A stretch of 64,000 nucleotides of DNA from Embleya hyalina (GTDB lineage Bacteria > Actinomycetota > Actinomycetes > Streptomycetales > Streptomycetaceae), in the NCBI RefSeq assembly GCF_003967355.1, contig NZ_BIFH01000015.1:376888-440887 (forward strand), written 5' to 3'. How positions within the stretch are numbered: the stretch's first letter is position 1; every line of letters begins with the position of its first letter. Below the pieces are notes generated by a model. The model made no database searches and was not told the DNA's origin. It saw only the letters and a program-made list of their open reading frames with translations. Position numbers and translations under genes: made by a program. Below are positions 21,921 to 26,226 of this stretch, piece by piece.

Positions 21921-22019
21921 TCAGTTCTGGCCCTTGTACAGCTTGGACACGGTCAGCGCGGCGAACCACGCGACGAGGACGCCGACCACGGCCAGCAGCG
22001 CAATGAAGAAGATGTGCAT
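21921..22019 (-). CDS. 32-residue single-pass membrane protein
   Basis: The frame encodes 32 residues: MHIFFIALLAVVGVLVAWFA, then ALTVSKLYKGQN. One membrane helix spans about residues 3-22 with a short basic polar C-terminus. GAGGAG lies about 11 nt before the ATG at 22019. Small proteins of this look are conserved at this place in Streptomyces genomes as I recall, but no function is known. It sits between the nitrobindin gene and the divergent DsrE-family gene. Confidence 0.7.
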   Translation of the reverse strand: MHIFFIALLAVVGVLVAWFAALTVSKLYKGQN

Positions 22020-22105
22020 CGCCCGGGTGCTCCTCGTGCTTCGTACGGGGCGGCCGGATCGCCCCGGCCGGGTGCCAAACGGCCTCAGTGTATAGGCTGC
22101 GGGCC

Positions 22106-22468
22106 GTGAAGCGATCTCTCGTGGTCAAGGTCACCGCAGGTCAGGACGCGCCGGAGCGCTGCTCCCAGGCGTTCACCGTGGCGTCGGTGGCGCTCGCGTC
22201 GGGGGTCGACGTGTCGCTGTGGCTCACCGGCGAGTCGTCCTGGTTCGCGCTGCCCGGGCGGGCCGCCGAGTTCGAACTCCCGCACGCCGCGCCGCTGCCG
22301 GATCTGCTCGACGCGCTGCTCGCGGGCGGGCGGGTGACGCTGTGCACGCAGTGCGCGGCGCGGCGCGGGATCACCGGGGACGACGTGCTGCCGGGGGTGC
22401 GGATCGCGGGCGCCCAGGTGTTCGTGCAGGAGGCGCTCGCCGACGGGGCCCAGGCGCTGGTGTACTGA
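22106..22468 (+). CDS. DsrE-family protein
   Basis: The 120-residue protein matches the DsrE/DsrF/YchN fold, with VKRSLVVKVTAGQDAPERC at the N-terminus and VDVSLWLTGESSWF in the middle. CTQCAARRGITGDDVLPGVR contains a CxxC near residue 80. Family members carry persulfide sulfur, and the CxxC is compatible with that, but the classic DsrE active cysteine arrangement is not certain. The start is GTG at 22106; TATAGG lies 9 nt upstream and no Shine-Dalgarno is seen, so the transcript may be nearly leaderless. Confidence 0.8.
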   Translation: MKRSLVVKVTAGQDAPERCSQAFTVASVALASGVDVSLWLTGESSWFALPGRAAEFELPHAAPLPDLLDALLAGGRVTLCTQCAARRGITGDDVLPGVRIAGAQVFVQEALADGAQALVY

Positions 22469-22493
22469 CCGGCCGGGCCCCGACGCGCCGGTG

Positions 22494-22817
22494 TCAGTGG
22501 CTGATCCCGGAGATGTTCAGGCCGATCACGCCGAGCAGGACCAGGCCGATCGAGATCAGCTTGAGCGGGGACGAGCCCTCGTTCAGCAGCCAGATGCCCA
22601 CGAGCGCGGTGCCCGCCGCGCCGATCCCGGTCCACACCGCGTAGGCGGGGCCGACCTCCAGGGACTTGAGCGCGTAGGTGAGCAGTCCGAAGCTGCCCAG
22701 CGCGCAGACGGCGAAGCCGATGGTGGGCCACAACCGGGTGAATCCGTGACTCTGCTTGAGCATGATGGCGAAGCCGGTCTCCAGGACTCCCGCGATGATC
22801 ACAATCGCCCATGCCAC
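22494..22817 (-). CDS. Small multidrug resistance (SMR) transporter, SugE/Gdx-like
   Basis: The 107-residue protein has four membrane helices and the essential Glu13 (AGVLETGFAIMLKQSHGFTR). The LK-x-S-x-GFTR segment is typical of SugE/Gdx, which exports guanidinium or quaternary ammonium. WTGIGAAGTALVGIWLLNE and LIGLVLLGVIGLN-type segments follow, as in the family. The start is GTG at 22817 with GGGAGG 6 nt upstream. A hairpin (GGTTTCC/GGGAACC) lies in the leader, but I could not match any guanidine riboswitch class. Only one SMR gene is present, so a homodimer is likely. Confidence 0.88.
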   Translation of the reverse strand: MAWAIVIIAGVLETGFAIMLKQSHGFTRLWPTIGFAVCALGSFGLLTYALKSLEVGPAYAVWTGIGAAGTALVGIWLLNEGSSPLKLISIGLVLLGVIGLNISGISH

Positions 22818-23046
22818 GTGTTGCCTCCCGGCGTCGCGCCTTGCTCCGGTGCCCCGATGCGCCGGGCGGTTCCCCCCGACGATACGGAAACCTTTCTGCC
22901 CCGACGACGGGCGGGACACACCGGGCGCACGACCGGACGGACCGCGCCCCTCCCCCGAGCACGTGGGGAGGGGCGCGGCCGTATCGCACCGAGCGGTGAC
23001 GGATTCCGTGGGTGTACGTCCGAAGGAGATCCGCCCCGTCGGGGTG

Positions 23047-23340
23047 TCAGACCGCGATCTCGACCTCGGCGACGGTGCCCTTCTCGGACACCACCACACT
23101 GCGGTCCACGGTCGCGCCGGGTACCAGGGCCCGGACAGTCCAGTTGCCGGGGGCCGCGAAGAACCGGAACTCGCCGGTCGCGGACGTGGGCACCTCGGCG
23201 GTGAAGTCGCCACCCGCGTCGAGCAGGCGCACGTAACCGTTGATGGGCTGCCCGCCCTTGGTCACCGCCCCCTGGATGATGGTTTCCTTCGCCACGTCAA
23301 CTCCTGCCAGATCCGGGCCGCCGGCCTTCGCACCGCACAT
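23047..23340 (-). CDS. DUF1416 (SseC-like) protein
   Basis: The 97-residue protein begins MCGAKAGGPDLAGVDVAKET, the conserved DUF1416 N-terminus with a cysteine at position 2. It continues as a beta-sandwich-like domain (GQPINGYVRLLDAGGDFTAE, GEFRFFAAPGNWTVRALVPG). In mycobacteria the homologue SseC lies next to the sulfurtransferase CysA/SseA, as here (39-nt gap, same strand). The function is unknown; a carrier or accessory role in sulfur metabolism is suggested by context. It should be co-transcribed with the sulfurtransferase under the upstream cysteine leader. Confidence 0.9.
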   Translation of the reverse strand: MCGAKAGGPDLAGVDVAKETIIQGAVTKGGQPINGYVRLLDAGGDFTAEVPTSATGEFRFFAAPGNWTVRALVPGATVDRSVVVSEKGTVAEVEIAV

Positions 23341-23379
23341 CGTTCCTGCTCCCTGCGTTCGGGTGGGTGTAGCCGTCGG

Positions 23380-24219
23380 TCACTTGCCGTCGCCGAGCTC
23401 GATCGGCACGCCGACCAGCGCGCCGTACTCGGTCCACGAGCCGTCGTAGTTGCGCACGTTGCCCTGCTCGAGCAGCTCGTGCAGGACGAACCACGTGTGC
23501 GCGGAGCGCTCGCCGATCCGGCAGTAGGCGATGGTGTCCTTCGCCAGGTCCACACCCTCGCCCTCGTACAGCGCGGTGAGCTCCTCGTTGGTCTTGAAGG
23601 TGCCGTCGTCGTTGGCGGCCTTCGACCACGGGATGTTCTTCGCGGTCGGCACGTGGCCGGCCTTCTGCGACTGCTCCTGCGGCAGGTGCGCCGGGGCGAG
23701 CAGCTTGCCGGAGAACTCGTCGGGCGAACGCACGTCGACCAGGTTCAGCGAACCGATCGCGGCGAGCACGTCGTCGCGCCAGGCGCGGATCGAGGTGTCC
23801 TGCGGCTTGGCCGTGTAGGTGGTCGCGGCGCGCTCGGGCACCTCGACGACCAGCTCGCGGGAGTCGAGCTCCCACTTCTTGCGACCGCCGTCGAGCAGCT
23901 TGACGTCGCCGTGACCGTAGAGCTTGAAGTACCAGTAGGCGTAGGACGCGAACCAGTTGTTGTTGCCGCCGTAGAGCACGACGGTGTCGTCGTTGGCGAT
24001 GCCCTTGGCGGACAGCAGCGCCGAGAAGCCGGCCTCGTCGACGAAGTCGCGCTTGACCGGGTCCTGCAGGTCGTCGCGCCAGTCGATGCGCACCGCACCG
24101 CGGATGTGGTTCTTGACGTAGGCGCTGGTGTCCTCGTCGACCTCGACGAGGACGACCTTCGGGTCGTCCAGGTGGGCCTGGACCCAGTCGGCGTCTACCA
24201 GAACGTCGGAGCGGCTCAT
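23380..24219 (-). CDS. Thiosulfate sulfurtransferase (CysA/SseA type)
   Basis: The 279-residue protein has two rhodanese domains. The inactive N-terminal domain covers about 1-130; the C-terminal domain carries the active-site loop AYCRIGERSAHTW with Cys233. The CRIGERS loop is characteristic of actinobacterial CysA/SseA proteins that transfer sulfane sulfur from thiosulfate. The ATG at 24219 has GGAGG upstream and gives MSRSDVLVDADWVQAHL. The 246-nt leader to the cysteine-rich leader peptide contains strong hairpins, consistent with attenuation. DUF1416 follows directly. Confidence 0.92.
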   Translation of the reverse strand: MSRSDVLVDADWVQAHLDDPKVVLVEVDEDTSAYVKNHIRGAVRIDWRDDLQDPVKRDFVDEAGFSALLSAKGIANDDTVVLYGGNNNWFASYAYWYFKLYGHGDVKLLDGGRKKWELDSRELVVEVPERAATTYTAKPQDTSIRAWRDDVLAAIGSLNLVDVRSPDEFSGKLLAPAHLPQEQSQKAGHVPTAKNIPWSKAANDDGTFKTNEELTALYEGEGVDLAKDTIAYCRIGERSAHTWFVLHELLEQGNVRNYDGSWTEYGALVGVPIELGDGK

Positions 24220-24269
24220 GGGATACCTCCGGTGCAGAAGTGCGCGGGATCTCGCGGATGTCGGGATGC

Positions 24270-24295
24270 ACGTTCGCGACACACGTTCGCGACAC
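24270..24295 (-). repeat. Exact 13-bp tandem duplication in the sulfurtransferase leader
   Basis: ACGTTCGCGACAC occurs twice in immediate succession (24270-24282, 24283-24295). It lies in the untranslated leader between the attenuator hairpins and the sulfurtransferase start. Confidence 0.8.
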
Positions 24296-24377
24296 ACCCG
24301 GGCATGCCGCGGCGCCGCCGCATGCGGGGGTGTACGTGTGTCAGGGGTGTTTCACGCGGGAGCCGGGTGCCCGTTCC

Positions 24378-24444
24378 GCCGTGTCGTCACACGGCTCGGG
24401 TCCCGGGGCCGACGGTCGGTCGCGATCCACCGCGGGTGGATCGC
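24378..24444 (-). promoter_or_regulatory. Attenuator-like hairpins after the cysteine leader peptide
   Basis: Two perfect hairpins lie in the leader RNA. The first has arms 24435-24444 and 24422-24431 with a 3-nt loop and starts 21 nt after the leader-peptide stop. The second (GCCGTGT/ACACGGC) spans 24378-24395. The placement fits a ribosome-stalling attenuation switch, although no U-tract follows either stem. Confidence 0.55.
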
Positions 24445-24465
24445 CGAACGACGACTGTCGACAAG

Positions 24466-24549
24466 TCAGTCAGCGCAACACAGGCAGGTCTGCGTGCGGC
24501 ACAGGTCCACTGCGCGCCGCTTGGTGAGGTCATCCGCCTGTCGCTTCAC
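24466..24549 (-). CDS. Leaderless polycysteine leader peptide for sulfur-gene attenuation
   Basis: A 27-residue frame begins at GTG 24549 and ends LTKRRAVDLCRTQTCLCCAD, with four cysteines in the last eleven residues, including adjacent Cys24-Cys25. The pattern LTKRRAVDLCR-x-CLC matches the cysteine-rich leader peptides found ahead of actinobacterial sulfur genes. In mycobacteria these act as cysteine-responsive attenuators, with ribosomes stalling on Cys codons when cysteine is scarce. A TACGAT -10 box ends exactly 6 nt before the GTG and no ribosome binding site exists, so the transcript should start at the initiation codon. It precedes the sulfurtransferase and DUF1416 genes. Confidence 0.82.
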   Translation of the reverse strand: MKRQADDLTKRRAVDLCRTQTCLCCAD

Positions 24550-24555
24550 ATCACG

Positions 24556-24585
24556 ATCGTAGGGACGGATGACCGCCGCTGTCAT
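24556..24585 (-). promoter_or_regulatory. Promoter of the cysteine leader transcript
   Basis: On the minus strand, ATGACA (24585-24580) and TACGAT (24561-24556) are 18 nt apart, and transcription would begin at or next to the GTG at 24549. Confidence 0.6.
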
Positions 24586-24652
24586 GCATGTCCCATCATG
24601 CGAGACAAATGTGTCCGTACTTCGAGACGACCAGGGGATTGATCCCTGTTTG

Positions 24653-25504
24653 TCATGGTTGTGCGAGTGGAATCTCGATGAGTTGCTCGCCGCCGACGAC
24701 GGTCCTGACGCTGAAGCGGGTGATCTCGCCGACGGGAATGCCGGTCGCGCCCCGGATCGGATCGGCCGGCGGGTAGTCGCCGTCGGGCACCACCCACGAG
24801 GACGCGGTCTCCACCCGGCCCTTGGTGCCGTAGACGTCCAACCGGCAGCGGGTGCCGGGGCGGATCCCGGACAGCGACAGGTCCACGCTGCTGCCCCACG
24901 CGGTGGGCGCGTAGCGCAGTTCGGCGCCCGCGCCGGAGCGTGGATCACCCGCGCGCACGGTACGGCCGCCCGGTTGCGCGGGCGGCGTCGCGGTGCCGGG
25001 CGGGGTGGCCGGCGCGGTCGGCGGGCCCGGGACCGCGCCCGTCGGCGCCGCCGCGGTGTCCCCGTCGCCGCCGGTGTCGCCGAGCGCCCAGCCGGTGAGG
25101 CCCGCCAGCAGCACCAGCACCGCTGCGGCCGCGGCGGCCAGCGAGCGCAGCCGCCGACCCCGGTCGGCCCGCACGGCGGCGGCGGACAACAACCGCGCGG
25201 GGGCCGCCCCCTGCGCCGCCGCGCCGCTGGCCCGCGCCTCCGGCTCGCTCAGCCGGGCCAGCATCCGGGGCAGGCCGGCCAGTTCCTCGTACTCGGCCCG
25301 GCAGCGCGGGCAGCCGGCCACGTGGGTGCGCACCCGGGCGGCCTCGTCCTCGTCCAGCGCGCCGACCACGAACGCCCCGAGGTCCAGGCGCGCGACCGCA
25401 CAGCCCAGCGGGGCGGGCGATCCCGGCGGCCGGGCGGGCGGCGGCGGGTTCGTGTCGGGAGTGGTGCCGTTCGTCGTCGTGCCCTCGTCCCCGATGTCCG
25501 TCAC
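24653..25504 (-). CDS. Zinc-finger (ZAS) anti-sigma factor with one membrane helix
   Basis: The 283-residue protein has an N-terminal ZAS domain (about 35-80) with LDLGAFVVGALDEDEAARVRT followed by HVAGCPRCRAEY, the H-x3-C-x2-C zinc motif. One membrane helix lies at about 130-152 (LAAAAAAVLVLLAGLTGWAL). The C-terminal extracytoplasmic part has a Pro/Ala-rich linker and a beta-rich domain (SSVDLSLSGIRPGTRCRLDV, FSVRTVVGGEQLIEIPL) that could sense an external signal. The GTG at 25504 overlaps the sigma stop (GTGA), so it is coupled to the sigma factor it should inhibit. Confidence 0.9.
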   Translation of the reverse strand: MTDIGDEGTTTNGTTPDTNPPPPARPPGSPAPLGCAVARLDLGAFVVGALDEDEAARVRTHVAGCPRCRAEYEELAGLPRMLARLSEPEARASGAAAQGAAPARLLSAAAVRADRGRRLRSLAAAAAAVLVLLAGLTGWALGDTGGDGDTAAAPTGAVPGPPTAPATPPGTATPPAQPGGRTVRAGDPRSGAGAELRYAPTAWGSSVDLSLSGIRPGTRCRLDVYGTKGRVETASSWVVPDGDYPPADPIRGATGIPVGEITRFSVRTVVGGEQLIEIPLAQP

Positions 25505-26226
25505 GGGACCAACCCCCTTTCCTCCAAGGCCACGCGCAGCGCTCGCAGCGCGTAGTACGTCCGTGATTTGACCGTGCCCTCCGGCACGCCGAGGGTCTTG
25601 GCCGCGTCGGCCACCGAACTGCCCCGGTAGTAGGTCTCCAGCAACACCGCGCGGTGCTCGGGGCTCAGCGCGGCCATCGCGTCGGCGACGTCCCAGGCGA
25701 GCACGGCCCGGTCGAACTCCGCCTCCGCGCCCTCGTCGGGCACCGTCGCGAGCACCGCGTCGCCGGTCTCGGGCGGCCGGGCGCGCCGGGCGCGGCCGAC
25801 GTCGATCACCACGTTGCGGGCCACGGTGCACAACCAGCCGCGGACCGAGCCCCGGCCGGGGTCGAGGGCCTCGGGGTGGCGCCAGGCCCGCAACAGGGTC
25901 TCCTGCACCACGTCCTCGGCCCAGGCCCGGTCACCACCGGTCAGCCGCAGCGCGAACCCCAGGAGGGGGCCGCCGTGTTCGAGGTAGAGGGTGCGGATGA
26001 CCGCCTCGTCGGCGGTGGATATTCGGGACGCCGAGTGCAGCGGGTCGGCGGCCGGTCGGTCGTCCTCGGGGGCGGTGCGCGCGAGGAAGGCGCGAGCCGC
26101 CGCCGGGTCCGCCTGCGCCTCGGCGCCGAGCACGTCCGAACGTTGCAACACACCCGCTTCACGAGCGGACGGGCCCGGCGGTTCATCCCGTGTCCCGGGA
26201 CGGGACCGGCGGCGTATCCACGGCAT
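25501..26226 (-). CDS. ECF RNA polymerase sigma factor
   Basis: The 241-residue protein has a roughly 70-residue polar N-terminal extension. Region 2 follows (LYLEHGGPLLGFALRLTGGD, AWAEDVVQETLLRAWRHPE, GSVRGWLCTVARNVVIDVGR), then a short acidic linker and region 4 (LSPEHRAVLLETYYRGSSVA, LGVPEGTVKSRTYYALRAL). This resembles the SigK/SigL-like ECF19 type, which is usually paired with ZAS anti-sigma factors as here. The start is ATG at 26226 with GGGAGG 8 nt upstream. The regulon is unknown; autoregulation of the pair would be usual. Confidence 0.9.
   Translation of the reverse strand: MPWIRRRSRPGTRDEPPGPSAREAGVLQRSDVLGAEAQADPAAARAFLARTAPEDDRPAADPLHSASRISTADEAVIRTLYLEHGGPLLGFALRLTGGDRAWAEDVVQETLLRAWRHPEALDPGRGSVRGWLCTVARNVVIDVGRARRARPPETGDAVLATVPDEGAEAEFDRAVLAWDVADAMAALSPEHRAVLLETYYRGSSVADAAKTLGVPEGTVKSRTYYALRALRVALEERGLVP

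Follow-up and report, generated by a model that had tools for sequence, protein, structure and literature searches.

Leaderless polycysteine small open reading frames (sORFs) of M. smegmatis reportedly act as attenuators ahead of sulfur-metabolism operons (Canestrari 2020). Cysteine leaders of mycobacterial cys operons were predicted in 2005 (Seliverstov et al., PMC1262725), and a leaderless, ribosome-occupied, Cys-rich upstream frame precedes cysA2/Msmeg_5788 (Shell et al. 2015, PMC4633059); cysteine-responsive regulation by such M. smegmatis frames is cited in two further papers (PMC9094748, PMC9031893). Judging by its name, the NCBIfam model NF042933 (Ms5788A family Cys-rich leader peptide) describes the cysA2/Msmeg_5788 frames of Shell et al. 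Here we analyse a relative of these frames in the window, the whole 64,000-nucleotide stretch of Embleya hyalina DNA under study. From its sequence kinship we infer that it functions as an Embleya example of this already known actinobacterial class of cysteine-responsive, ribosome-mediated leaders. All parts of the locus lie on the minus strand:

24580–24585, minus: −35-like ATGACA (spacer 18; 9 of 12 consensus matches)
24556–24561, minus: −10 box TACGAT, separated from the GTG by the 6 nt CGTGAT
24466–24549, minus: predicted leaderless leader-peptide ORF VKRQADDLTKRRAVDLCRTQTCLCCAD, 27 codons, GTG at 24549 to TGA at 24466
24478–24480, minus: UGU Cys codon (C24) at +10 from the Val of VDLCR, invariant among orthologues
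24422–24444, minus: 10-bp hairpin GCGATCCACC-CGC-GGTGGATCGC, ten perfect pairs, 3-nt loop, no U-tract, 21 nt after the stop
24379–24394, minus: second hairpin CCGTGTGACGACACGG, with a U-A to C-G exchange in other Embleya
24280–24340, minus: a third hairpin region, long and rich in G+C, ahead of the gene
24226–24230, minus: Shine–Dalgarno (SD) GGAGG of the sulfurtransferase gene, within the Embleya-conserved stretch CACTTCTGCACCGGAGGTATCC
23380–24219, minus: CysA/SseA-like thiosulfate/3-mercaptopyruvate sulfurtransferase, 279 aa (Pfam Rhodanese in two stretches, E = 1.2e-30)
23047–23340, minus: DUF1416 (SseC-like) protein, 97 aa (Pfam PF07210, E = 2.9e-37)

These features bear out much of what an earlier note had read from the letters: a 27-residue GTG frame ending in CRTQTCLCCAD, placed exactly 6 nt after a TACGAT box with a fair −35; a perfect 10-bp hairpin 21 nt beyond its stop; and, now by Pfam match, a CysA/SseC-like sulfurtransferase–DUF1416 operon. 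The C-terminal tail CRTQTCLCCAD holds a cluster of four Cys codons (TGC17, TGC22, TGT24 and TGC25). The pair ATGACA/TACGAT is the only promoter-like site in 600 bp (0.1 expected), and the TGACA core of its −35 is also seen in Streptomyces orthologues. Among 211 orthologous leaders, 186 carry a TANNNT 6–8 nt before an in-frame ATG or GTG, against 0–3 in controls with the frame or the place shifted. The commonest box is TACGAT and the commonest spacing 7 nt, the 6 nt of the window being a minority variant. With a −10 box within 6–8 nt of its start codon, the window leader is predicted to be leaderless, as the note had proposed, and comparative support for this is strong.

An Rfam search of positions 22000–26000 matched no known riboswitch or RNA family, and a comparison with phage records gave no match. 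Large plus-strand ORFs over the region (for example, 22756–24642) lie antisense to the genes and were treated as spurious. Upstream, a minus-strand gene (24653–25501) encodes an anti-sigma-like protein with an N-terminal zf-HC2 zinc finger and ends ~100 nt before the leader start; the frame preceding it looks like a sigma-factor gene.

The window peptide matches NF042933 at E = 5.1e-9 and 35.7 bits, below the curated cut-off of 45; a peptide modelled on a same-family relative scores 46.3 bits, above it. Across its own genome and those of relatives, NF042933 is found in 21 of 21, exceeding the cut-off in 7. It is also present in 267 of 394 genomes of the class and in none of 14 control genomes. 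A second model, NF042934 (cis_reg_atten, putative leader peptide), is matched at 30.0 bits, over its cut-off of 27. Gene order agrees with NF042933 membership, the leader preceding a cysA-type sulfurtransferase/DUF1416 operon whose sulfurtransferase is 98% identical to its E. scabrispora counterpart. Of 212 loci with the orthologous sulfurtransferase, 211 have a leader upstream of it. Loci L028–L107 were gathered via the sulfurtransferase rather than the leader, and so carry no bias towards the leader; the remainder were gathered via the protein profile, which takes no account of synonymous codons. The note's kinship with mycobacterial Cys leaders is, by sequence, sustained: the frame belongs to the family described for cysA2/Msmeg_5788.

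Its other emphasis, on polycysteine as the defining trait, does not survive the comparison. What is kept across orthologous leaders is the peptide core TKRRAVDLCR, and from VDLCR onwards 123 of the 211 leaders have only two Cys codons, 44 have three, 23 have four and 21 have six to eight. The four of the window are therefore above average, and the polycysteine extreme belongs to genomes of family f6, mycobacteria-like by their leader tails and gene context. A codon alignment of the orthologous leaders reveals a stricter constraint. Ten codons beyond the Val of VDLCR, every one of the 211 leaders encodes its Cys by TGT (146 distinct sequences, a few places having been entered twice). The other Cys codons of the same leaders favour TGC (327 TGC, 83 TGT), as do the genes of the window (61 TGC, 12 TGT) and Streptomyces sulfurtransferase genes (TGC in 86 of 86). 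The stop of the window leader follows four codons after the invariant UGU, an arrangement shared by 158 of the 211. Codons beside the UGU vary, which speaks against a base-pairing reason for its U. By this alignment, evolution has kept one rare Cys codon at a fixed place, together with the peptide core, and not a run of cysteines. A further synonymous bias concerns the Ala codon before the Val of VDLCR, which is GCA or GCG in 202 of ~208 orthologous leaders, although the downstream gene in Streptomyces uses GCC most often for Ala.

Beyond this locus, the pattern R-x-x-[VI]-D-[LF]-x-R-x5-C occurs at 14 places in the Embleya genome; the 12 that carry TGT are all leader-like, and the 2 that carry TGC look unlike leaders. 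About a dozen further NF042934-type leaders are present in this genome, all with TGT at the +10 Cys codon. Many of them precede sulfur genes (cysteine synthase, a Cys/Met PLP enzyme, sulfite/nitrite reductase, cysteine dioxygenase); others precede a luciferase-like monooxygenase, an FMN reductase or transporters, and one a candidate sulfonate-type binding protein (weak match). Over 22 Streptomycetaceae genomes, the TGT pattern gives 164 matches against 2 for a reversed control; the TGC pattern stays at background, with 14 against 17. Class-wide, a TGT match is present in 193 of 246 genomes and a TGC match in 77. Leader-like TGC exceptions do exist—in a group of small genomes of family f27, as RRTVDLCRLGGCCC in three f6 genomes, and as single cases in G041, G079 and G142—so the UGU rule is near-universal rather than absolute.

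We put at about 0.82 the probability of our main reading: that the Embleya frame is an Ms5788A-type orthologue and that ribosome pausing at its Cys codons opens expression of the operon. Transcription would start at or next to the GTG, as the conserved layout suggests, with ribosomes loading directly on the 5′ end. A ribosome would read the core LTKRRAVDLCR and then the Cys codon, nearly always UGU, and would pause in this region when Cys-tRNA runs short, or perhaps to a degree under all conditions, through its nascent chain; the core would sit in the exit tunnel when the UGU is reached, making such a contribution possible. The paused ribosome would alter the folding of the ~250-nt leader RNA, or Rho access to it, and the sulfurtransferase and DUF1416 protein would be expressed; with ample cysteine the ribosome would run off and expression would fall. 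We infer the pause, its cysteine dependence and an output at either translation initiation or transcription.

The earlier note had cast the 10-bp hairpin as the attenuator, which in its classical form would make 24444–24422 a terminator, folding once a ribosome has passed the Cys codons without a pause. The 48-nt stretch containing the hairpin folds at −22.4 kcal mol−1 (z −2.8; 3 of 200 shuffles fold equally well), locally better than shuffles. In its favour, a hairpin is kept at this place, with changed sequence and partly compensated changes, in three Embleya species: read by eye, E. scabrispora has one compensated and one broken pair and locus L018 a rebuilt stem. However, few parts of the leader region are less well conserved in sequence than the hairpin, within Embleya too, and it is not kept as such in Streptomyces; there, the region following the stop shows no conservation. 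No T-run follows the stem, and no intrinsic terminator is called on the minus strand. A ribosome stalled at the last Cys codon would have its leading edge ~20 nt short of the hairpin, which lies outside the footprint of a ribosome on any Cys codon, so direct masking could not switch it, and no competing antiterminator was found. The global fold of the leader mRNA is unremarkable (z −0.7). Transcription termination of this kind is thus improbable, and the hairpin may instead be structural. A Rho-dependent version, in which untranslated C-rich RNA is exposed once the ribosome leaves and is shielded while it pauses, has been proposed for mycobacterial cys leaders that lack terminators (Seliverstov 2005, PMC1262725) and would suit the C-rich, unconserved spacer of Streptomyces. 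Against it, no conserved Rho site was found and the strong hairpins of the Embleya spacer could hinder Rho loading; we regard it as possible, on the unlikely side. An operon under promoter control only, for instance by NdgR or a sigma factor, with the short frame a translated by-product, is very improbable: conservation extends class-wide to the peptide, its reading frame and even one synonymous position, which promoter control leaves unexplained. NdgR does bind upstream of S. coelicolor cysA (SCO4164, likely the orthologue of the sulfurtransferase gene), which responds to diamide (PMC4340878); promoter control therefore exists too and probably works alongside the leader.

The remaining alternative places the output at translation, a leader segment pairing with the ribosome-binding site (RBS) unless a paused ribosome covers it. 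The M. smegmatis model of Canestrari 2020 is said to be of this RBS-sequestration kind. In 85 Streptomyces-type leaders, the span from leader stop to SD has a single well-conserved element, ACUGCCCC, which immediately precedes the SD. The leader GGGCAGU of crown Streptomyces is complementary to ACUGCCC just 5′ of the SD, and two lineages (L035/L043 and L240) show the matched change of GGGCGGU with ACCGCCC; together these suggest RBS sequestration in crown Streptomyces. In loci L029–L107 and L222–L241, ACTGCCCC is kept just 5′ of the SD, complementary to the GGGCAGT of the leader DNA. In a ribosome-masking simulation over 132 sequences, masking at the last Cys lowers the SD opening energy relative to masking at the stop codon in 102, but these are mostly related Streptomyces, and no consistent effect is seen among the Embleya sequences. 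Of the seven GGGCAGU:ACUGCCC pairs, no more than five are kept in Embleya and several basal streptomycetes. Duplex energies between leader and RBS, computed for the window and for 15 relatives, show no excess over synonymous, shuffled or swapped controls. One 9-bp bulged pairing in the window, GGAU(G)ACCUC:GAGGUAUCC, looks good by eye, yet 36% of synonymous leaders equal its pair count, and we rejected it. Translational control by sequestration has a real chance of being right, somewhat short of even.

A single bacterial tRNA-Cys (anticodon GCA) reads both UGU and UGC, so UGU was not selected for another isoacceptor. Decoding of UGU by G-U wobble could slow the step and heighten its sensitivity. 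For amino acids served by several tRNAs, the sensitivity of an attenuator is known to depend on the codons it uses (PMC1183508). We propose tentatively, and with more doubt than confidence, that leaders of Actinomycetes sense cysteine mainly through the one UGU at +10 from the Val, read by G-U wobble with the core in the exit tunnel: a sensor of one codon, tuned by which codon is used and by the nascent chain, not by a polycysteine run. The literature searched, which did not cover Canestrari 2020, held no mention of a fixed-register UGU codon, and this near-invariant codon is the part that may be new. The UGU rule predicts that a single synonymous change to UGC should weaken regulation, an outcome that would separate codon-level sensing from simple cysteine content. 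The signature would also let annotators find one- or two-Cys leaders that a polycysteine search would miss. More broadly, these data give the mycobacterial cysteine leader family a firm place in Streptomycetaceae, where its leaderless promoter layout is conserved; the dozen or so related leaders in one genome, many on sulfur genes, are what a shared cysteine circuit would need.

Comparison with described systems helps to set the Embleya leader in context. It shares with the M. smegmatis polycysteine attenuators a leaderless Cys leader before a sulfur-metabolism operon, whereas most orthologues gathered here are not polycysteine, and the structural output reported for M. smegmatis was not found in the window. 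Polycysteine orthologues from family f6 have six or more Cys codons, mostly adjacent, against four in Embleya and two in crown Streptomyces; their leader lies mostly ~600 nt from the sulfurtransferase gene, and another gene may intervene. The R-x-x-[VI]-D-[LF]-x-R-x5-C frame is shared with the wider cis_reg_atten set (NF042934), of which further copies in the genome precede sulfur genes, but in many members the +10 Cys is the only one and His replaces Ala ahead of the Val. The uORFC-8-2 leader of Rhodobacterales cysS (PMC8632094) likewise has Cys codons in a leader peptide and a proposed ribosome-mediated attenuation, unlike Embleya in its intrinsic terminator with a U-run, its tandem and mostly UGC Cys codons, its alphaproteobacterial host and its different downstream gene. 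Closest is the Ms5788A family itself (NF042933, the cysA2/Msmeg_5788 upstream frame), from which the Embleya tail CRTQTCLCCAD differs in its four Cys codons and the other residues between them, and with which the Embleya leader has in common the core LTKRRAVDLCR, the predicted leaderless start, a near-C-terminal Cys, the downstream sulfurtransferase family and the gene context.
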